A program made the position numbers and the translations under genes. 64,000 bases of DNA from Sulfitobacter geojensis. Its GTDB lineage: Bacteria > Pseudomonadota > Alphaproteobacteria > Rhodobacterales > Rhodobacteraceae. Positions 53,944 through 64,000 of this stretch are shown one piece after another. The notes under the pieces were generated by a model. The model was not told the origin of the DNA. It did no database searches and saw only the letters and a program-made list of their open reading frames with translations. The first letter of the stretch is position 1, and every line of letters begins with the position of its first letter. The stretch is taken from the NCBI RefSeq assembly GCF_000622325.1, contig NZ_JASE01000005.1:744001-808000 (forward strand), read 5' to 3'.

Positions 53944-54678
53944 TTAAAGATCGTCGAAACTGCGCTTTACCTGATCCCAAGCGGATTCAAGGTGGGCGCG
54001 CAATGCGTCCTCTGCGCGATCGGGATCGCGGTCCAGAATTGCATCAAGAATGCTTTTATGGGCTTCGAAGTTCGTGCGATTGCGTTCGGGATCTCGCGGC
54101 ATCTGTCGCCAGCGGACATCCAGCCAATCGGAAAACGCGGTGTGGATCGCGGGAAACACGGGGTTGTCGACAACGTCGTAAAGCAGTCTGTGAAACGCGC
54201 GGTCGGTTTCATAGAATGCCAGCGAATCGTCGATGCTGTCTTCGTTCGATTTCAGAGCGGCCTTCAGGCGGGCAATCTGTTCTTTGCTCGCCTTTTCAGC
54301 AGCAAGCCGGACAAGGCCCGCTTCGACAAAAATGCGCAGGTCGAAAATTTGGCGGGTGCCGCCACTGGCGTGTGTCAGATGCCCGACAAGCCCGCCCAAC
54401 ATGCCCAGAACAGTGCCGACATCCGGCGTGCGCACCATTGGCCGGTGACGCGGCGCGGCTTTCACCAACCCTTTGCCCTCAAGAATCTTGACGGCTTCGC
54501 GGGCAACCGGACGGCTGACTTTCATCTGTTCGACGATGCTGCGTTCGGCGGGCAGGGATTGCCCGTTCTTCAACTCGCCCGAAAAGATCTGTGCCTCGAT
54601 TGCGGACACGACTGTCGCGACTGCGCTTTGATCACGCAGCGGCTTTTTACACGGTGTTTCAGGTGTTTCACTAGCCAT
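53944..54678 (-). CDS. FadR/GntR-family transcriptional regulator
   Basis: A 244-residue repressor. The winged helix runs to about residue 85 (GELKNGQSLPAERSIVEQMKVSRPVAREAVKILEGKGLV) and an FCD ligand-binding domain from about 100 (FDLRIFVEAGLVRLAAEKAS, FHRLLYDVVDNP). FCD proteins sense carboxylates such as sugar acids. The ATG at 54678 was chosen; a longer frame to 54741 crosses the operator. Divergent from the enolase-superfamily gene with operators in between, so it likely regulates both sides. Confidence 0.93.
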   Translation of the reverse strand: MASETPETPCKKPLRDQSAVATVVSAIEAQIFSGELKNGQSLPAERSIVEQMKVSRPVAREAVKILEGKGLVKAAPRHRPMVRTPDVGTVLGMLGGLVGHLTHASGGTRQIFDLRIFVEAGLVRLAAEKASKEQIARLKAALKSNEDSIDDSLAFYETDRAFHRLLYDVVDNPVFPAIHTAFSDWLDVRWRQMPRDPERNRTNFEAHKSILDAILDRDPDRAEDALRAHLESAWDQVKRSFDDL

Positions 54679-54721
54679 TGACGCAGTTTCCCACGGATGC
54701 AGAAGCTTATCAATCACGATT

Positions 54722-54736
54722 ATTGGATAGACCAAA
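54722..54736. promoter_or_regulatory. FadR-type operator near the regulator start
   Basis: ATTGGATAGACCAAA, matching the conserved half ACCAAA and the TTGG arm at the same 6-3-6 spacing; 44 bases upstream of the regulator. Confidence 0.5.
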
Positions 54737-54757
54737 TGCAAGTTAGTGGACCTATCG

Positions 54758-54827: not shown

Positions 54828-55925
54828 ATGGCGAAGATCACGAAAATGGACAGTCACCTGTTTGCGCTGCCGCTTAAGGAAGTGCTGAGCGACGCCATGC
54901 ATGGCGATCATACGTTCTTTGAGCTGGTCATCGTAAGACTTGAGCTTGCGGATGGGACCAGTGGTACGGGCTATACCTATACCGGTGGTAAGGGCGGGCA
55001 TGCGATCAAGGCGATGATCGACCATGATCTAAAGCCGTGGCTGATCGGTTCCGATGCGGGCGATATTCCGGCGCTTTACGAACAGATGGGGCGTCATATC
55101 CACTATGTCGGGCGTGGCGGGATTGACAGTTTTGCAATCGCGGCCATCGACATCGCGCTTTGGGATGCCCAGTGCCGCCAGCTTGGCAAGCCGTTGTGGC
55201 AGGTTGCAGGGGGCACTGCGGACCGGTGTGCCGCCTATCGGGGCGGGATTGATCTGAACTACCCCCTGCCCAAACTGCTGGACAGCGTGCGCGGTTATAT
55301 CGAACAGGGATTTAATGGCGTTAAGATTAAGGTGGGCAAACCGGATCTTGCGGAGGATCTTGAACGTGCACGTGCCGTAATTGATCTGATCGGTCCCGAT
55401 GTGGATTTCATGGTCGATGCCAATTACTCCATGTCTCTTGCACAAGCCATCACTGCCGCCCATGCGTTTCACGACCTTGGTGTTGTCTGGTTCGAAGAGC
55501 CGATAGAGCCTGACGATTATGCCGGTTACGGCCATATCGCAGAGGTGACAGGCTGTCCGCTTGCCATGGGGGAAAACCTGCACACAGAGCAGGAATTCCG
55601 CCACGCGTTCGACAATTCGCGCTTGTCCTATGTCCAACCGGACGCGTCCAATTGTCGGGGCATTACCGGTTGGCTGGCGATTGCTGAAATGTCGCGCGAC
55701 GCCGGCATTCCGGTTTGCAGTCACGGCATGCAGGAACTTCACGTCAGTCTTGTCTCGGCCCAGCCGAACGCAGGGCAGATCGAAGTGCACAGCTTTCCGA
55801 TTGATGAATACACGCATCGCCCTCTTGTGATCGAGGATCACATGGCCGTTGCCCCGTCGATACCCGGTATCGGGGTCGAATTTGATTGGGAAAAGCTGCG
55901 GCGCGCGCATATGCCGACGAAATAG
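54828..55925 (+). CDS. Mandelate racemase/muconate lactonizing enzyme family protein (sugar-acid dehydratase)
   Basis: A 365-residue enolase-superfamily enzyme. Catalytic Lys pair in VKIKVG (Lys166, Lys168), metal ligands Asp197 (VDANYS), Glu223 (WFEEPIEP) and Glu249 (GENLHT), and the general acid/base His299 (CSHGMQE) are present. It fits an acid-sugar dehydratase, with the neighbouring dehydrogenases completing a hexonate or hexuronate route. The exact substrate cannot be predicted. ATG 54828 follows GGGAG. Divergent from the regulator. Confidence 0.9.
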
Positions 55926-56003: not shown

Positions 56004-57734
56004 TCAAACCCCGGCAACGCGTTCGATCAGGGTTTCAGCGGAGCGCATGCCTGCGATCACGTGGTTCTGCCCACGCACCAGTTGAGTGCGTCCGAACCCC
56101 TGCAAATCTGCCGGTGTCGCGGCGATTTTGCTGGCCTGATCCAAGGCGGGCAGGGGCGGGATGGTCAGCGCAGGGTCATGGCGGAACCGGTCCGAGCGGT
56201 TGAAGTTAAGCGGCACCAGAATGCGAGCGAGGTCTTGGATCACGATATTCGCCCGCGCCTCATTGACGGACCCATCGGCGACACCATCGTAGAACGCGTT
56301 AAGCTTGCTCAACAAACTGTTGCTTGCTGCTTTGGCGTCTGAAAGGTCGAACGCATCGCCGGCTTCGGATTGATAGGTCGCCAGCGTGTCCTGAAATTCG
56401 CGGGCCGTCGCGCGCCAGTCCTGCGGCAAGACCGCAGCGTTTGCGTTGCGGAATACGGCGAGCAGGTACACCTTGATGTCGCGTAACAGGATGTCTTTGT
56501 CAGCGATCTCAAGCGTGTCGTTCTCGGTGTGCCATGCAATGTTCATGCCACAGCCACCAACAGCGTAATATCCCAGTTCTTCGCGGTGTGCGTCTGTCAT
56601 GGCAGAGGACAGCATAAGGTAACCGGACAAGCCGATGTTGTTGAAAGAATAGTCGCCCGCGCGGTGGGGGCGTTCGGAATGCAATTCCTTGCCGCAAACG
56701 TCCTTAATCACCTGTGCCAGATAATCGTGGTTCTCCGACATGACAGACACATTCAGGAATTCCGTGGCCCAGCGGCAGCCGGGGCTGTCACAGTTCACTT
56801 GCGCCACGCAGTTGGCGTCCAGATCCAGCGCGAAGGTGTCGGAATACCATGTGGATCCCGCGTAACGGCCGGTGGAGTGCCCGGGCCACCAGACGATTTT
56901 GACCGTGCGACGCAGCTTGTCCTTGTTGGCCCACAATACACGGGCGATTTCCAGCATGCTGGCGTCACCGGTTGCGTTGTCGCCGACACCCACATCCCAA
57001 CTGTCGAGGTGGCCGTGCAGCAGCACGTATTTCTCTGGCTCTTCAGTGCCCGGGATCGTGATTTCAGGCAGTTTTGAGGTGAACCAGCCTTCTTCCATCT
57101 CGGTAAAGATCGTGGCTTCACCACCGGCCTCAGCAATTGCACGCAGGGCCTGACCGCTTTCGAAATTGACCGCGGCGGCGGGAATGGTTGGCTTGTTCGG
57201 CAGATCATCCGTGCCGGGCGTGCCCCAGATGGTCGTGCAGATACCCCAGTGGATATCGACGCCGGGGTTGATCGCGATCACACCGATGGCACCGCATGTG
57301 TCCATCAACGAAATGATCGCGGGGCTGGCGAAACCTTCGGTCAGCACGATCTTGCCGCGCACCTTCGCTTCCATCTCGGCAGAGGCTTCCAACTGGCTTT
57401 CGAACGCGTCTTCCTCGTCCATGTTGGTGGTGCCGGGGATATAGACCAGCGGGCCGCTTAGTCCGTTTGGTGTGTTCACAGCATAGGCAGGAGGCTTGGC
57501 GCGGAACGTTGTGCCATCCGCTTCGACACGCGCCTGACCGGGCAGGCTGAGATAGAGCTCCGGCTCGTGCACCTGAACCTCGACACCATGACCGCGAAGT
57601 GTGTCGACAACTTCATCCATTCCGCGATTGACGTCATCGGGATGCTCGCGCTTGAACGTCGCAAAGCTCTCGACCAAGGCCCAGGGCGCATCGATTGTCA
57701 CCTGTTCAAGCAGGTCTTTTTCTGTCTGGTTCAT
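56004..57734 (-). CDS. M28-family peptidase-like protein with PA domain, lacking the usual Glu pair
   Basis: A 576-residue protein without a signal peptide, so cytosolic. A PA-type insert lies near 90-210 (GKIVLTEGFASPAII, GVIAINPGVDIHWG). Zinc ligands of M28 are visible: His242 and Asp244 in HGHLDSW, Asp252 in GDNATG, Asp316 in NCDSPG and His402 in WHTENDTLE. The position of the catalytic and zinc-bridging Glu-Glu (usual GAEExGLxGS) reads GHSTGRYAGS around 285-294, so the pair is absent. This may be a distinct hydrolase such as an amidase, or a non-catalytic relative. It is next to an IclR gene and a peptide-type importer, with shared operator motifs. Confidence 0.85.
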   Translation of the reverse strand: MNQTEKDLLEQVTIDAPWALVESFATFKREHPDDVNRGMDEVVDTLRGHGVEVQVHEPELYLSLPGQARVEADGTTFRAKPPAYAVNTPNGLSGPLVYIPGTTNMDEEDAFESQLEASAEMEAKVRGKIVLTEGFASPAIISLMDTCGAIGVIAINPGVDIHWGICTTIWGTPGTDDLPNKPTIPAAAVNFESGQALRAIAEAGGEATIFTEMEEGWFTSKLPEITIPGTEEPEKYVLLHGHLDSWDVGVGDNATGDASMLEIARVLWANKDKLRRTVKIVWWPGHSTGRYAGSTWYSDTFALDLDANCVAQVNCDSPGCRWATEFLNVSVMSENHDYLAQVIKDVCGKELHSERPHRAGDYSFNNIGLSGYLMLSSAMTDAHREELGYYAVGGCGMNIAWHTENDTLEIADKDILLRDIKVYLLAVFRNANAAVLPQDWRATAREFQDTLATYQSEAGDAFDLSDAKAASNSLLSKLNAFYDGVADGSVNEARANIVIQDLARILVPLNFNRSDRFRHDPALTIPPLPALDQASKIAATPADLQGFGRTQLVRGQNHVIAGMRSAETLIERVAGV

Positions 57735-57847: not shown

Positions 57848-58636
57848 TCAGCCGAGGGTGAGCTTTGTGGAGATTTTGTCGGCCGCAGCCTTCACCGCTT
57901 CGATATATGCTTCGCGTCTTTGCTCATCGAGGCGCACGGCGGCACCGGCGATTGAAAGGGCGGCCACCACTTCACCGGATGCGTTAAAGATCGGGGCGGC
58001 GATCGAAAATGCGCCATCATCCAGATCGTTCAGCGCCACATTGTACCCGTTGGCCCGAATCCGGTGCAGGATTTTGCTGAGCTGTTCGGGGTCCGTGATC
58101 GTATGATTCGTGTAGCTGGGCATTTCGGACGTGAGGACGCGGTCTAGAATGGAGGGTTCAGCATAGGCGAGCAACAACATTGAGCCGCCGCCTGCATGCA
58201 ATGGCCCCTTGCGCCCTGTTTGCGCGAACATACGGATCGCGTGCAACCCTTCGCGAGTCGCCAGGGCCAGCGCATAATTCCCTTCGCGGATGACCAGATT
58301 GACGTTTTCGCCAGTTTCATCACGCAACTCGTCCATGATTTGCGGGGCGACATGCAGCAAAGCCCCATCGCGGCCCACGCGTTCGCCCAACAGGGCAACG
58401 CGGTAGCCCAGTGAAAAGGTTGCCCGTTCTGCGTCGCGGTGCACATAACCTGCTTCTTCGAGTGTCTGTAACAGTCTGAAAACGATAGATTTCGTCAGGC
58501 CCATTTCATTGGCCAATGCGGTCACGCCAAGGCCGGGTTTTTCGGCAAGAGCCTCGAGAACATTCAGTGCCCGCCCCACTGCCTCAATTTTATACGATTT
58601 GCGCTGGGCAGGGGGGGTAACTGCATCGTTTGTCAT
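57848..58636 (-). CDS. IclR-family transcriptional regulator
   Basis: A 262-residue regulator. The N-terminal winged helix (residues 15-80: VGRALNVLEALAEKPGLGVTALANEMGLTKSIVFRLLQTLEEAGYV) and the IclR GAF-like effector domain (MDELRDETGENVNLVIREG, DDGAFSIAAPIFNASGEVVAAL) are complete. ATG 58636 follows GGAGCG. It is divergent from the importer operon and on the same strand as the M28 gene downstream, so it probably controls both. Effector unknown. Confidence 0.93.
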   Translation of the reverse strand: MTNDAVTPPAQRKSYKIEAVGRALNVLEALAEKPGLGVTALANEMGLTKSIVFRLLQTLEEAGYVHRDAERATFSLGYRVALLGERVGRDGALLHVAPQIMDELRDETGENVNLVIREGNYALALATREGLHAIRMFAQTGRKGPLHAGGGSMLLLAYAEPSILDRVLTSEMPSYTNHTITDPEQLSKILHRIRANGYNVALNDLDDGAFSIAAPIFNASGEVVAALSIAGAAVRLDEQRREAYIEAVKAAADKISTKLTLG

Positions 58637-58674
58637 GGTCGCTCCAAAAAAGTGTATTGTCTTTTTCGACAATC

Positions 58675-58723
58675 GTGTTTTACTGAATAAAGTAATTTCG
58701 TTCTGTCTCACTCAGTAAAACAC
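58675..58723. promoter_or_regulatory. Long inverted repeat between the IclR gene and the importer operon
   Basis: GTGTTTTACTGA (58675-58686) and its perfect complement TCAGTAAAACAC (58712-58723) flank 25 bases. The left arm runs on into TACTGAATAAAGT, resembling the M28 operator. This fits a pair of IclR dimer sites across a divergent promoter. Confidence 0.65.
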
Positions 58724-58873: not shown

Positions 58874-60529
58874 GTGAACACTCTATTAAAGCTGGCGTCT
58901 ACGTCGCTGATGAGCATGGCGATGCTTGCCGGACCGACATGGGCGCAGGACAAAATCCGCACGATCCATTTGCTTTCGCGCCCGCAGGCGGCGCAACCGG
59001 CAGAATTTCAGGCCGTTCAACTTATTGCACAGGAATGGCGCAAACTGGGTCTGGACGTAGAAGTTGACGTCATGCCGTGGGAGCAGATGTCATCCGAGGT
59101 TTGGTACAACCGCGAAGATTGGGACGTGACCGCGTGGCAGATGACCGGCCGGCCCGAACGCTCCGACCCCGACGAGATTATCTATAACCTTTTCCACTCC
59201 ACCACAGCGGAGTCCGGTTATAACTTCATCGGCTACAACAACCCCGAATATGATGCGCTGGTTGAAAAGCAGCGTGTGACGATTGACCCGACAGAGCGTC
59301 AGGCGCTTGTCCGTCAGGCGCAGGAAATTCTGGCCAAAGACCAGCCCAACATGATGCTGGTGCACCCCGAGCAGGCCTTTGCCTTTGACAACACAATCTG
59401 GGATGCAGCATCGGTTGTGAACCAGTCGGGCATCGGTATCCGTAACACATGGACGTGGTTGTCGCTGGCCCCCAAGGGCGACCAGAAAGACATCATTGCC
59501 AACTCCGCCGATAACGTGATTGCGGTGAACCCGCTTTATATCTCCGGCGTGACCGACAGCTGGATTACCGAGTTGCTGTATGACCGCCTGTTCCGCGTTG
59601 GGCCGGACGGCTTGCCCACAGAATGGGCCGCGACCAGCTATGAATGGCGCGACGATAAAACCATCGCCGTGACCCTGCGCGATGATATGAAGTGGCATGA
59701 CGGTGAACCCCTGACCGCCGAAGACGTCAAGTTTTCGTTTGAGACAACGGTTGGTGGTGAAGCGCCGATGTATTCGCCGTTCGGCAAGGGCATCAGCGAT
59801 ATCGCAATCGAGGGCGAAAACGTCGTGGTCTTCACGCTTGAAACCCCCTCTGCGTCTTTCATCATCTCCAGCCTTGCCAAGATCAACCTGATCCCCAAGC
59901 ACGTGTGGGAGCCGATCCTTGCCGACCTGTCGACCAAAGAGGAAAACGCAGAGAGCTATCAGGAAGAGATGCCCATCGGGTCAGGCCCTTACAAGTTTGA
60001 CCGTTGGATCACCAACGAAGAGATCGTTCTGAGTGCAAACGCCGATCACTTCAACGCACCAAAGGCAGAGCGCTGGATCCTGCGTTTTGTGCCGAACGCC
60101 GAAGCATCTTTGGGCATGTTGCGTTCGGGCGAGGTGAACTTCCTGACCGATTTCTCCGGTGACCCGCAAGTTCTGGTTGATGCCGCAGAAGCGGATGGTG
60201 ATCTGGAAGTCGTATCAACCGTCGACATCGGTTTCCGGTATCTGGCCTTTAACAACCGCCGCCCGCCGTTCGATGATCCGGCCTTCCGCTCGGCACTTTC
60301 CTCTGCTGTAGATCGCCGCTTGATCGTAAACGCTGCTTTCAAGGGCTTTGCGGTTGCATCAAACTCGGTTGTTTCACCGGCGCTTGAATTCTGGCACGCC
60401 AAGGATGTTGTCGACAACTTCAAGGCAGGGTCTGACGTTGCGAAAACGATGCTGGAAGAAGCAGGCTACACAATGGATGGTGACAGTCTGGCCTATCCTG
60501 ATGGTGTAAAAGAGACCCTGGCCGACTAA
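58874..60529 (+). CDS. Peptide/opine-type ABC substrate-binding protein with circularly permuted SBP_bac_5 domain
   Basis: A 551-residue periplasmic protein with a signal peptide (LASTSLMSMAMLAGPTWAQ). In ordinary SBP_bac_5 proteins the order is: VYDGLV..G..P.LA.SW, then KWHDGEPLTAEDVKFSFE, GSGPYKF, FNNRRPPFDDPAFR.ALS.A.DR, then AGY, and last QLIAQEWRKLGLDVEVDVMPWE and ERQALVRQAQEILAKD. Here the last block comes first (residues 30-195: LIAQEWRKLGLDVEVD, NFIGYNNPEYDALVEKQ, RQALVRQAQEILA) and the first block follows (from about 212: TELLYDRLFRVGPDG, KWHDGEPLTAEDVKFSFE, IGSGPYKF, FNNRRPPFDDPAFRSALSSA), ending in LEEAGYTMDGD. This is a circular permutation with a linker at about 196-211. GTG 58874 follows AGGAGAG. 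It heads a dpp/opp-like operon, so it is likely functional. Confidence 0.85.
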   Translation: MNTLLKLASTSLMSMAMLAGPTWAQDKIRTIHLLSRPQAAQPAEFQAVQLIAQEWRKLGLDVEVDVMPWEQMSSEVWYNREDWDVTAWQMTGRPERSDPDEIIYNLFHSTTAESGYNFIGYNNPEYDALVEKQRVTIDPTERQALVRQAQEILAKDQPNMMLVHPEQAFAFDNTIWDAASVVNQSGIGIRNTWTWLSLAPKGDQKDIIANSADNVIAVNPLYISGVTDSWITELLYDRLFRVGPDGLPTEWAATSYEWRDDKTIAVTLRDDMKWHDGEPLTAEDVKFSFETTVGGEAPMYSPFGKGISDIAIEGENVVVFTLETPSASFIISSLAKINLIPKHVWEPILADLSTKEENAESYQEEMPIGSGPYKFDRWITNEEIVLSANADHFNAPKAERWILRFVPNAEASLGMLRSGEVNFLTDFSGDPQVLVDAAEADGDLEVVSTVDIGFRYLAFNNRRPPFDDPAFRSALSSAVDRRLIVNAAFKGFAVASNSVVSPALEFWHAKDVVDNFKAGSDVAKTMLEEAGYTMDGDSLAYPDGVKETLAD

Positions 60530-60611: not shown

Positions 60612-61589
60612 ATGAGTACGCTCAAACCCGTTCTATCGCGCACCTTACAGTTAATGCTGGTCCTTTGGGCAGTTGTGACCATCCTGTTTCTGATGTTCCG
60701 CTTGATGCCGGGCAACCCGCTCGCGGCCTACATCGACCCGTCTTTCACCCTTGAACAGCAAGAGCAGTTGATCCGCCAATTCGGTCTGGATGAACCACTG
60801 CTGTCGCAGTATTTCACCTACCTCGGCAATCTGTTGCAGGGCGAGCTGGGATATTCATTCCGCTACCGCACGCCGGTTTCCGAACGCATCTGGCTGCTGC
60901 TTCCGAACACGCTGATCCTGACGTTTTCCTCGCTCATCATTGCCTACATCTTTGGTATTCTCGCAGGTGCCTGGCTTGCATGGCGCCGCGCCAGCCGCGC
61001 CGAAGCTGTGGCTTTGCCCATTGTCCTTGCCACCCGCGCGATGCCGGAGTTCTGGCTGGGTATGGTATTGCTCGCGGTCTTTTCCTTTTCGCTGGGCATA
61101 TTTCCTGCGGGGGGAACGCGGTCCGCAGGCACCGAATACGACAGCCTTTGGGCGCTCTATACCTCGGCTGATTTTCTGTCCCACCTCGCGCTGCCGATGC
61201 TGACGCTGGCAATATATTCCCAGGGTCTGCCGTTGCTGCTGATGCGCTCGAACATGTTGGACGTGATGAAAGAAGACTTCGTCACCATGGCCAAGGTCAA
61301 AGGCCTGTCACCCTATACTATCGTCATCAAACACGGCGCACGTAACGCTTTGCTGCCGGTCATGACGTCCTTTGCGATCTCTGTCGGCTATCAATTGCAA
61401 GGCAACGTGGTGGTCGAAAGCGTGTTCTCCTGGCCGGGATTGGGGCGTGAACTTGTCTCGGCGGTCTCTGCTTCCGACTATCCGTTGGCGCAGGGGGCGT
61501 TCCTAATGATCGCCGTTGTCGTAATCCTGATGAACCTGATTGCCGACCTTCTTTACACCTTCCTCGACCCAAGGATTTCCCATGCCTGA
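60612..61589 (+). CDS. Peptide-type ABC transporter permease (DppB/OppB-like)
   Basis: A 325-residue permease with about six membrane helices. Motifs: TILFLMFRLMPGNPLAAYID near the N-terminus, GLDEPLLSQYFTYLGNLLQGELGYSF, and the EAA-type loop VKGLSPYTIVIKHGARNALLPV. It follows the binding protein by 82 bases and overlaps the next permease by 8 bases. With it, it forms the channel. Confidence 0.94.
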   Translation: MSTLKPVLSRTLQLMLVLWAVVTILFLMFRLMPGNPLAAYIDPSFTLEQQEQLIRQFGLDEPLLSQYFTYLGNLLQGELGYSFRYRTPVSERIWLLLPNTLILTFSSLIIAYIFGILAGAWLAWRRASRAEAVALPIVLATRAMPEFWLGMVLLAVFSFSLGIFPAGGTRSAGTEYDSLWALYTSADFLSHLALPMLTLAIYSQGLPLLLMRSNMLDVMKEDFVTMAKVKGLSPYTIVIKHGARNALLPVMTSFAISVGYQLQGNVVVESVFSWPGLGRELVSAVSASDYPLAQGAFLMIAVVVILMNLIADLLYTFLDPRISHA

Positions 61590-62475
61590 GGCTATCGTTT
61601 CCCAAGGACCGATCCGCCGCATGTTCAACATGCTGAACCTGCCGGTTGGCGATAACTTCGCCGTCGCAGGTCTGGTGATCTATCTGCTGTTTGTCCTGAC
61701 CGCGATCTTTGCGCCGGTGCTGGCCCCCTATGACCCGACCGAGATTTTGTATTCAGCGGACTATGATCTGGCGTCTGATTTCCTGCCGGGGCAGGAGGGC
61801 CATATTCTGGGCACCACCAGCCTTGGCCGCGATATCTTTTCGCAGATCGTCTATGGAGCACGGTCGGCCCTGCTAGTTGGTTTGACGGCGGCTTTTATGG
61901 TCGCGTTCATCGGCACCATTGTCGGCCTGATGTCCGGCTATTTCGGGGGCTGGATTGATACCGTCCTGATGCGGCTGGCCGATGTGGCCTTTGGTATTCC
62001 GTTCCTGCCGTTTGTGATTGTGATCTCGGCCTTTCTCGAACCGTCAATCTGGAACACGGTCATCGCTATGGCGCTGGTCCTGTGGCGTGACACAGCGCGC
62101 GTGATCCGTTCGCAGGTGCTGACCCTGCGCTCTCGCGGCTATGTCGAAGCGGCGCGGGTGTCAGGCTCTTCCGATTTCAAGATCATCACACGCCACATCG
62201 CTCCCAATATCGTCCCGCTGTCGCTTCTTTATGGGTCCATCGCCATTGGTTGGGCCATCCTGACCGAAGCCTCCATCAGCTTTCTGGGGTTCGGTGACCC
62301 TGACAGCATCAGCTGGGGCTTCATGTTGCAGGATGCCTTTGCCAGTCAGGCACTGAGCCGCCAAGCCTATCATTGGTTCATCCCGCCGGGCCTTGCGATC
62401 ATTCTGGTCGTTTCTGCGGGGTTCTTCATCTCGCGCGGTTACGAAAACCTTCTGTTTCCAAAGTTGGGCCGTTGA
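61582..62475 (+). CDS. Peptide-type ABC transporter permease (DppC/OppC-like)
   Basis: A 297-residue permease with six helices, FAPVLAPYDPTEILY, GTTSLGRDIFSQIVYGARSAL and the EAA-type loop ARVSGSSDFKIITRHIAPNIVPL. The ATG at 61582 follows AAGGATTT and overlaps the DppB-like stop. The stop at 62475 is one base from the ATPase start. Confidence 0.94.
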   Translation: MPEAIVSQGPIRRMFNMLNLPVGDNFAVAGLVIYLLFVLTAIFAPVLAPYDPTEILYSADYDLASDFLPGQEGHILGTTSLGRDIFSQIVYGARSALLVGLTAAFMVAFIGTIVGLMSGYFGGWIDTVLMRLADVAFGIPFLPFVIVISAFLEPSIWNTVIAMALVLWRDTARVIRSQVLTLRSRGYVEAARVSGSSDFKIITRHIAPNIVPLSLLYGSIAIGWAILTEASISFLGFGDPDSISWGFMLQDAFASQALSRQAYHWFIPPGLAIILVVSAGFFISRGYENLLFPKLGR

Positions 62476-62476
62476 T

Positions 62477-63496
62477 ATGACTGACCACCTACTTACCGTC
62501 AAAGATTTGTCTATCGCCTATGAGGTGCCGGGTCTTGATATCGTTGCCGTGTCGCGTGCGTCCTTTGATGTCCCAAAGGGGTCAATCGTCGGGCTGGTGG
62601 GCGAAAGCGGCTGTGGCAAGACCACGATGGCGCGCGCCTTTACCCGCATCATTTCCGACAACGCCAAGATCACCGAAGGCAGCATGATGTTTGACGGGCA
62701 AGACCTTGCCAAGCTGCCAGAGAAAGCGATGAACGCCCTACGCTGGCGTGACATTGCCTTTGTGCCGCAATCGGCAATGAACTCGCTCGATCCGGTGTAC
62801 CGTGTTGAATACCAGCTGAATGAAGTGCTGCGGGGCAGGGGCGGCATGACCCGTGCTCAAGCCAAAGTGCGGGCAGAAGAACTGTTCGAAATGGTCGGGA
62901 TTGAGGCGAACCGGCTGCGTGACTATCCACACCAGTTTTCGGGTGGCATGCGCCAGCGGGTCGCGATTGCCTTGGCGCTCGCATTGAACCCCAAGCTGAT
63001 CGTGGCGGATGAACCGGTGACGGCATTGGATGTAATCGTTCAACGCCAAATTCTGGACCAGATGCGCGATCTGCAACGCGAGCTTGGCATCTCTATCATC
63101 ATGGTGACGCACGACATTTCGGTTGTCGCCTATATCTGTGACCGCACGGTGGTGATGTACGCAGGCGAGGTGGTCGAGGATTGCGATACCGCGACGCTGT
63201 TGTCCGAACCGCTGCATCCTTACACCATGGGTCTCAAAAACGCTTTCCCCGATATTGCCAGCGCGGGTTCGGGCACGCTGACCCCGATCAGTGGCGCGCC
63301 GCCGGACCTTGCCACCCCGCCAAGCGGTTGCCGTTTTGCGGCGCGATGCCCGTTTGCCACCGATCACTGCCGTGCAGTGTCACCCGTTTTGGAAAAGCAT
63401 GCAGAGGGCCATTCGGTCGCCTGTCACCGCGCCCATGAAGCGGCGCAGTTGCGTGCGCAGGCAGCCCAACCCGAGACATGGGGAGAGATGGCATGA
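62477..63496 (+). CDS. Peptide-type ABC transporter ATP-binding protein (DppD/OppD-like)
   Basis: A 339-residue ABC ATPase with Walker [10 protein letters not shown], signature [15 protein letters not shown], Walker [13 protein letters not shown] and the C-terminal oligopeptide ATPase tail ([10 protein letters not shown]). The last cysteine-rich region is the iron-sulfur-like loop of DppD/DppF proteins ([14 protein letters not shown]). Overlaps the next gene by ATGA. Confidence 0.94.
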
Positions 63497-64000
63497 GCAC
63501 GCCACTTGTCGAGGTCGAAAACGCGCAATTGCATTACAAGGTCGGCTCGGCTGCCTCCGCGATGTTGGGGTTGCCTTCGGTCGTCAAAGCGGTCGACGGA
63601 ATTACCTTTACACTGAACAAAGGCGAAAGTGTCGGTCTGCTAGGTGAAAGCGGCTGTGGGAAAACGTCGATGGGGCGTCTTTTGGTCAAGCTGGAGGACG
63701 TCACCGGCGGTTCGGCCCGTTTTGACGGGGCAGAAATTGCGCAGCTAAAGGGAACTGACCTGCGCAAGTTCCGTTCGCGCAGCCAGATGATATTCCAGAA
63801 CCCCTTTGACGCGGTAAACCCGCGTTACTCCATTAAGAAAACGATGGCAGAGCCGTTGGGCAACGCGGGTATCCCCAAAACGGAATGGGACAGCCGCATC
63901 ATCAAGGCGCTGGAACTTGTCCGCCTTGCCGAGCCCGAGCAATATCTGGACCGCTATCCGCACCAGTTGTCGGGCGGTCAGTTGCAGCGTGTGGTGATGG
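63493..64000 (+). CDS. Peptide-type ABC transporter ATP-binding protein (DppF/OppF-like), 3' end outside window
   Basis: The visible 169 residues include Walker [10 protein letters not shown], a Q-loop region (SRSQMIFQNPFDAVNPRYS) and the signature HQLSGGQLQRVVM at the window edge. The order binding protein, two permeases, two ATPases completes an importer. The gene continues past 64000. Confidence 0.93.
   Translation, partial: MSTPLVEVENAQLHYKVGSAASAMLGLPSVVKAVDGITFTLNKGESVGLLGESGCGKTSMGRLLVKLEDVTGGSARFDGAEIAQLKGTDLRKFRSRSQMIFQNPFDAVNPRYSIKKTMAEPLGNAGIPKTEWDSRIIKALELVRLAEPEQYLDRYPHQLSGGQLQRVVM

Follow-up and report, generated by a model that had tools for sequence, protein, structure and literature searches.

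A circularly permuted family-5 binding protein in a dpp-type operon of Sulfitobacter geojensis and its relatives

Introduction

Family 5 of the substrate-binding proteins (SBP_bac_5, PF00496) is one of the largest bacterial binding-protein groups, and its members DppA, OppA, AppA and NikZ are cluster C (Type II) binding proteins. A 64,000-nucleotide stretch of the Sulfitobacter geojensis genome (contig NZ_JASE01000005.1, positions 744,001 to 808,000; hereafter the window) contains at 58874-60529 a gene of this family in which the block that is normally C-terminal comes first. Is the gene an accident of one genome or its assembly, a fusion with an unrelated domain, or a circular permutation with a history of its own? 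The swapped block order is confirmed. Judged from sequence comparisons, the product is very probably the extracytoplasmic binding protein of a dpp-type importer, derived from a family-5 protein by one old permutation and inherited together with its own permease.

Block order in the binding-protein gene

The gene is a real and uninterrupted frame of 551 amino acids on the forward strand. A search of the source genome placed positions 292-366 of the PF00496 model at 58976-59209, upstream of positions 3-284 at 59618-60487. A sequence-only reading of the window had claimed swapped SBP_bac_5 blocks in an intact frame, to be visible as two local matches in reverse order, and this is what the search returned, with no single collinear match. 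PF00496 is the only Pfam family that matches the protein, and because it does so as two stretches in swapped order, we class the protein as a permuted variant rather than a canonical member. The whole protein scores 233.4 bits, above the curated cut-off of 32.4, and the C-block stretch alone scores 31.4 bits, slightly under it. Throughout the source genome PF00496 matches 19 places: the two in the permuted gene and 17 single stretches elsewhere, 16 of which span most of the model and one of which spans 2-166. All 16 members of an alignment of permuted proteins (A1) match PF00496 at E<=0.001, and no named NCBIfam model scored above its own cut-off for the window protein. The gene divides as follows.

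58874..58948, + strand: signal peptide region, about residues 1-25, no lipobox (sequence, signal peptide judged by eye, model confidence)
58952..59473, + strand: C-block, residues 27-200, counterpart of the last third of canonical family-5 proteins, moved to the N-terminus here (PF00496, DppA and 1dpp matches)
59474..59479, + strand: two-residue junction KG, old C-terminus to old N-terminus (block hidden Markov models, HMMs)
59480..60511, + strand: N-block, residues 203-546, counterpart of the first two thirds of canonical proteins, up to a point past the AGY helix (PF00496, DppA and 1dpp matches)
60512..60529, + strand: final five residues at the new C-terminus, then the stop codon (sequence)

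Profile comparison pairs residues 385-506 of DppA from Escherichia coli K-12 with residues 40-165 of the window protein (C-block alignment A4, E 2.1e-7) and DppA residues 27-369 with columns 204-533 of the full alignment (A3, E 7.9e-27); Bacillus subtilis AppA matched both blocks within one comparison. In the hhalign alignment, with residues counted by hand, DppA D436 (precursor numbering), an acidic residue with a role in peptide binding, pairs with approximately Glu95 of the GRPERSDPD motif, and across A1 this column holds E, D, A, S, H or N. A permuted protein from a plasmid of Haladaptatus caseinilyticus (L133:6800-8533) keeps a canonical-looking CADNGDPDG where the window's group has GRPERSDPDE.

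Predicted structure and sites of cutting and joining

The AlphaFold2 model of the window protein is confident (predicted local distance difference test, pLDDT, 91), with values below 50 only at residues 1-22. When the blocks are compared separately, the N-block matches residues 1-345 and the C-block residues 342-498 of 1dpp, and together they tile one solved chain. The 30 best Foldseek matches (E 1.5e-5 to 8.3e-4) bear the titles of Opp-, Dpp-, App-, Nik-, Sap-, Mpp-, Hbp- and Gbp-type binding proteins, YliB and one "family 5" protein. The window protein is thereby predicted to have the family-5/cluster C fold, matched block by block.

In canonical family-5 proteins the C- and N-termini adjoin in domain I. 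The linker between the block HMMs is two residues long in 100 of 105 permuted proteins, a set from which 14 duplicate loci had first been removed. The new C-terminus comes after the AGY helix plus a short segment with YP at its end, and the new N-terminus begins at the strand that comes next in canonical proteins. Both sites agree with canonical features, the join with the termini and the cut with one loop. The tail YPDGVKETLAD of the window's group resembles the canonical YPDGF-x-x-TL strand, whose place is likewise taken by the new N-terminal strand. Both ends may therefore hold a copy of that strand as a trace of duplication and trimming, ten residues being too few as proof. No structure with the permuted order was found in the PDB: among 60 of the 109 distinct sequences matching the family profile at E<=1e-10, none is collinear over the whole profile, and their best stretches begin at profile position 183 or later.

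Distribution of the permuted order

Within the family of the source organism, 17 of 394 genomes (own included) match the permuted protein at E<=1e-60, all collinearly over most of its length; the 16 others are 30-77% identical to it, and according to the block HMMs all 16 genes have the swapped order. A scan of genome contigs yielded 171 relatives, of which the best 80 were kept, and the locus counts given here rest on these. The C-block precedes the N-block in 80/80. One of the relatives, from Sulfitobacter brevis, is 87% identical. By name 70 are proteobacterial, nearly all of them alphaproteobacterial, and the remaining ten are metagenome-assembled genomes (MAGs) with labels, which can err, of Trueperaceae (3), Terrabacteria ANGP1 (3), Armatimonadetes (2), Thermomicrobiales (1) and Bacillota (1).

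The order is also found on plasmids. Eighteen PLSDB plasmids match at E<=1e-60, five of which are haloarchaeal (Halalkalicoccus, three Haladaptatus and Natrononativus; 30-33% identity), and both haloarchaeal loci that were fetched (L132, L133) have the swapped order. At a profile E<=1e-90 the class gave 14 of 385 genomes (own included), one of them matching in the N-block only (L049), the phylum of a Thermomicrobiales MAG 2/201 and that of a Trueperaceae MAG 10/111, in both cases with the centre included. A draw from the source phylum gave only the own genome (1/398, or 0/397 others), which says little because the rows listed came from genomes of one family or genus with the source and three candidates per genome were scored. 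All these genome counts are lower bounds, the number of candidates scored being limited to between 3 and 13 per genome. The permuted family is widespread and probably old rather than the result of a single event in the source genome. Annotated records that were fetched or listed call the gene a plain ATP-binding cassette (ABC) transporter substrate-binding protein, and because Pfam adds only two partial stretches to this plain annotation, the group is easy to overlook.

In Neorhizobium galegae (H7; CP090555.1 575533-576876) the match starts at residue 102 and crosses two annotated features, so this gene may be broken or misannotated.

Phylogeny, permease association and selection

In the careful N-block tree (91 rows, 33 permuted) a single branch with support 100/98 sets all permuted rows apart from the canonical ones. 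The careful C-block tree (90 rows, 33 permuted; one C-block was too short) separates them in the same way, also with support 100/98, and for both blocks the split is present in 100% of 200 bootstrap trees. A quick N-block tree with the long rows included (124 rows) recovers the same single split, with a Shimodaira-Hasegawa-like approximate likelihood ratio (SH-aLRT) of 91. A clade of homologues with the same order, which the sequence-only reading had proposed to look for, is found in both block trees. For the quick tree 57 of the 105 permuted proteins were dropped at 78% identity, and the careful N-block tree lost 33 of its 124 starting rows, 11 for long branches, the permuted L050 among them. 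Ten rows with an undetected C-block were labelled canonical where used, L168 alone having been read by eye. The separation of the groups could have been aided by the block HMMs, which were built from permuted proteins, and by the delimitation of C-blocks as a fixed stretch after the N-block in canonical proteins and by HMM bounds in permuted ones. The N-block and C-block clades have identical membership and mostly similar subgroups, but the canonical sister differs between the trees, with the long-branched L163, L010 and L012 nearest in the N-block tree and L162/L152/L147 nearest, at a weak 90/76, in the C-block tree.

A single branch likewise sets apart the DppB permeases encoded beside permuted proteins (34 versus 41 rows, 100/99), four of 79 permeases having been omitted because their loci lack a same-strand binding-protein gene (L196, L203, L245, L127). 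Against the window DppB, the DppBs of the haloarchaeal permuted operons score 322 and 323 bits, whereas canonical-assigned DppBs reach at most 208.5 and the unassigned L245 row 211.8. On this sampling, the permuted binding protein and its DppB permease travelled together.

The ratio of non-synonymous to synonymous change (dN/dS, NG86) between the mature window protein and five relatives of equal length is 0.04-0.10, with synonymous sites near saturation. For the separate blocks no obtained estimate exceeds 0.13, two C-block values being unobtained. The permuted gene is maintained by purifying selection.

The sequence-only reading had suggested duplication and fusion as the source of the permutation. 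This route is plausible: L147, L158 and L162 each carry two family-5 frames side by side, non-permuted as far as seen, an arrangement from which fusion and permutation could start. No intermediate was found among the fetched proteins. Their double block matches trace to a single C-block and five N-blocks, each of them broken into two pieces, and to nothing else. Six long frames of 990-1240 amino acids (L101, L108, L120, L122, L123, L129) were considered as intermediates and rejected, the upstream part holding no second block above the limits and resembling, by eye, an out-of-frame shadow.

Operon, neighbouring genes and possible ligand

The description of the surroundings as an otherwise normal dpp/opp-type operon was borne out, with two permeases and two oligo_HPY ATPases of dppBCDF type next to the binding protein.

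56004..57734, - strand: M28 peptidase, frequent neighbour; by eye, no signal peptide is evident (PF04389)
57848..58711, - strand: IclR-family regulator, divergent, frequent neighbour (PF01614/PF09339)
60612..61589, + strand: DppB-type permease, in the permease clade of permuted systems (PF00528/PF19300; tree)
61540..62475, + strand: DppC-type permease, longest frame, start provisional (PF00528/PF12911)
62393..63496, + strand: DppD-type ATPase, longest frame, start provisional (PF00005/PF08352)
63478..64000, + strand: DppF-type ATPase, extending past the window end (L131:1579-2577; Pfam)

Past dppD the order is DppF, a quinone-reductase-like protein, HyuB, HyuA and an M20 peptidase of dipeptidase type. 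Across the 80 loci DppB was found in 76, DppC in 75, DppF in 69 and DppD in 65, and among other neighbours the M28 peptidase in 56, IclR in 49, HyuB in 47, the quinone-reductase-like gene in 40, HyuA in 15 and M20 in 8. Overlapping frames were dropped from these counts, which are also limited by flanks of at most 8 kb and by contig ends; without the overlap filter DppC rises to 76, DppD to 74 and IclR to 50 of 80. At least two M28 peptidase-like genes occur in the permuted transporter's locus in L100, L102, L124, L128, L129 and L130.

The best NCBIfam matches of HyuA and HyuB are caprolactamase alpha (506 bits) and beta (228 bits). Because these scores are far under the 1000-bit cut-offs, the proteins are not classed as caprolactamase and only hint at a substrate class; from sequence, HyuAB could be an ATP-dependent hydrolase of lactams or hydantoins that is so far undescribed. 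The HyuB and HyuA genes overlap just right of the window (L131:3523-7444). Nitratireductor sp. OM-1 has the same gene order, with an aspartate/glutamate racemase gene ahead of the binding protein. One haloarchaeal locus has M20 and creatininase genes, and the other has D-aminoacylase, dipeptide epimerase and M81 genes. Going by these neighbouring enzymes, we tentatively suggest that the window's own group might bind a small amide or amino-acid-derived compound. No direct lead came from papers on operons for hydantoinase, caprolactam or diketopiperazine.

Ten further stretches represent distant permuted subfamilies. DppB is present in 10/10, on the opposite strand in L196 and L203, and the neighbouring enzymes mostly differ from those of the window's group. 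The subfamilies would accordingly differ in ligand while serving the uptake of small amides or amino-acid derivatives. In one distant subfamily an enolase-superfamily frame lies, by eye, between dppB and dppC (L195, L199, L200), and frames resembling FAD (flavin adenine dinucleotide) oxidoreductases follow dppF in L195 and L199.

Beside the cluster the window also contains an enolase-superfamily gene (54828-55925), with L-talarate/galactarate dehydratase as its best NCBIfam match, below the cut-off, and a divergent gene for a GntR/FadR-like regulator, named by eye (53944-54741). As they occur, within the limits of the neighbour counts, in 0/80 and 1/80 of the relatives' loci, they are likely a separate unit.

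Discussion

Sequence, predicted structure and phylogeny make circular permutation, as the sequence-only reading proposed, the best account of the gene: the permutation is evident in the sequence and supported by the predicted structure, and its single origin follows from the trees on this sampling. In the proposed course of events, the old C- and N-termini of a family-5 protein would have been joined through about two residues and new termini opened in the loop directly after the AGY helix, so that the signal peptide now precedes the former C-terminal block. The likely route would be that the gene was duplicated, fused in frame with its copy and trimmed at either end, and the event would have happened once in the sampled lineage and been passed on with its own DppB permease, the root and direction of change being assumed. 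By analogy with the family, the protein would take the ordinary family-5 shape, close on its ligand and pass it to DppBC, with transport powered by DppD and DppF. After import, the HyuAB (lactam/hydantoin type), M20 and M28 enzymes encoded nearby may open or hydrolyse the compound in the cytoplasm.

How else could the arrangement have arisen? An assembly error, local rearrangement or decaying gene confined to the source genome is vanishingly improbable, since nothing was found in its favour, the same order stands in all 80 kept loci and all 16 same-family genes, and dN/dS is low; pseudogene and assembly error are rejected. Just as negligible is an unrelated domain placed ahead of a truncated family-5 protein. 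The C-block's own Pfam score, one bit under the cut-off, would suit it, but the AppA and DppA matches, the fit of the C-block model to the ends of family-5 structures and the Opp/Dpp/App-type and kindred titles in Foldseek speak against it, and as far as homology goes it is rejected. Shuffling, with the C-block taken from one family-5 paralogue and fused to the front of another's N-block, deserves more weight and is still unlikely. The two trees disagree on the nearest canonical rows, and the authors of the paper on TpMglB-2, a permuted binding protein of Treponema pallidum, consider something similar for a part of it (PMC4990184). Yet both blocks form one clade with the same members and largely the same subgroups, and the product holds one of each block, cut and joined at sites that fit the loop and termini of one canonical protein. 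It seems very improbable that the permuted order came first, or split off early on its own, and that the canonical order derives from it, even if gain and loss are not separable in one branch with two states because the trees are unrooted. PF00496 is present in 54/58 class and 11/14 control genomes (order checked in the fetched loci only), whereas permuted genes occur, within the limits stated above, in 16/393 other family genomes and 12 or 13/384 other class genomes.

Several observations weigh against a single old permutation inherited with its own importer. Order-keeping aligners give no one-piece superposition of the whole model on a canonical chain, so that the match to the DppA/OppA fold, a check proposed in the sequence-only reading, holds for each block separately but not for the protein in one piece, and the C-block modelled in isolation is only moderate (pLDDT 71, predicted template modelling score, pTM, 0.58). 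The canonical rows were mainly high-scoring Pfam matches and the trees are unrooted, so one origin holds for this sampling rather than for the whole family. A gene with two C-blocks, the expected fusion intermediate, was not seen among the fetched proteins. L114 has no dpp gene within 17.6 kb, and L068, L116 and L118 also lack DppB in loci 3.2-9.7 kb long. Because distant subfamilies adjoin other enzymes, the guess at a substrate is not transferable to the whole family.

A broader and rather speculative proposal is that an ancient permutation founded a separate binding-protein/permease lineage that spread over Bacteria and Archaea by descent and transfer, the moved termini having altered opening, tethering or docking and DppB having co-evolved. 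If so, the matching permease clade would be the expected trace of such a mechanical change. A conserved natural permutation is in any case a ready-made experiment on fold order, hinge mechanics and permease docking, and the permuted scaffold with its new termini could serve sensor design.

Comparison with known systems

No description of a permuted family-5 binding protein was found in open-access full text, most subscription papers and preprints lying outside this coverage; this agrees with, and does not prove, the statement of the sequence-only reading that no such permutation is known to have been described. The permuted family-5 family is apparently undescribed, and its nearest precedent is TpMglB-2 (Tp0684), described in its source paper as a circularly permuted Type I/cluster B glucose-binding lipoprotein and proposed as Type Ic/Cluster Bc, with membrane tethering as a possible reason for the permutation (PMC4990184). 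In the family described here, a simple pattern found a lipobox-like motif before the C-block in only 3/105 proteins (the doubtful L094 and the archaeal L132 and L133). Tethering is rejected as a general reason for the permutation because 102/105 members lack the motif.

Among known gene sets, hydantoinase/oxoprolinase (HyuAB) and caprolactamase sets are closest to the neighbouring HyuA and HyuB, the caprolactamase scores being far below their cut-offs. With canonical SBP_bac_5 proteins such as DppA, OppA, AppA and NikZ the permuted proteins share homology over both blocks, the blockwise predicted fold, the dppBCDF operon and the signal peptide; they differ in their swapped block order and in termini that lie after the AGY helix. 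With TpMglB-2 they share the natural permutation of an ABC binding protein, its presence in relatives and the cognate permease and ATPase. The strong structure matches of the window protein are to family 5, which speaks against a Type I/cluster B fold, although absence from such a list excludes nothing. TpMglB-2, by contrast, is a lipoprotein with a Type I fold and a sugar ligand, whereas the window protein and its relatives belong to family 5.
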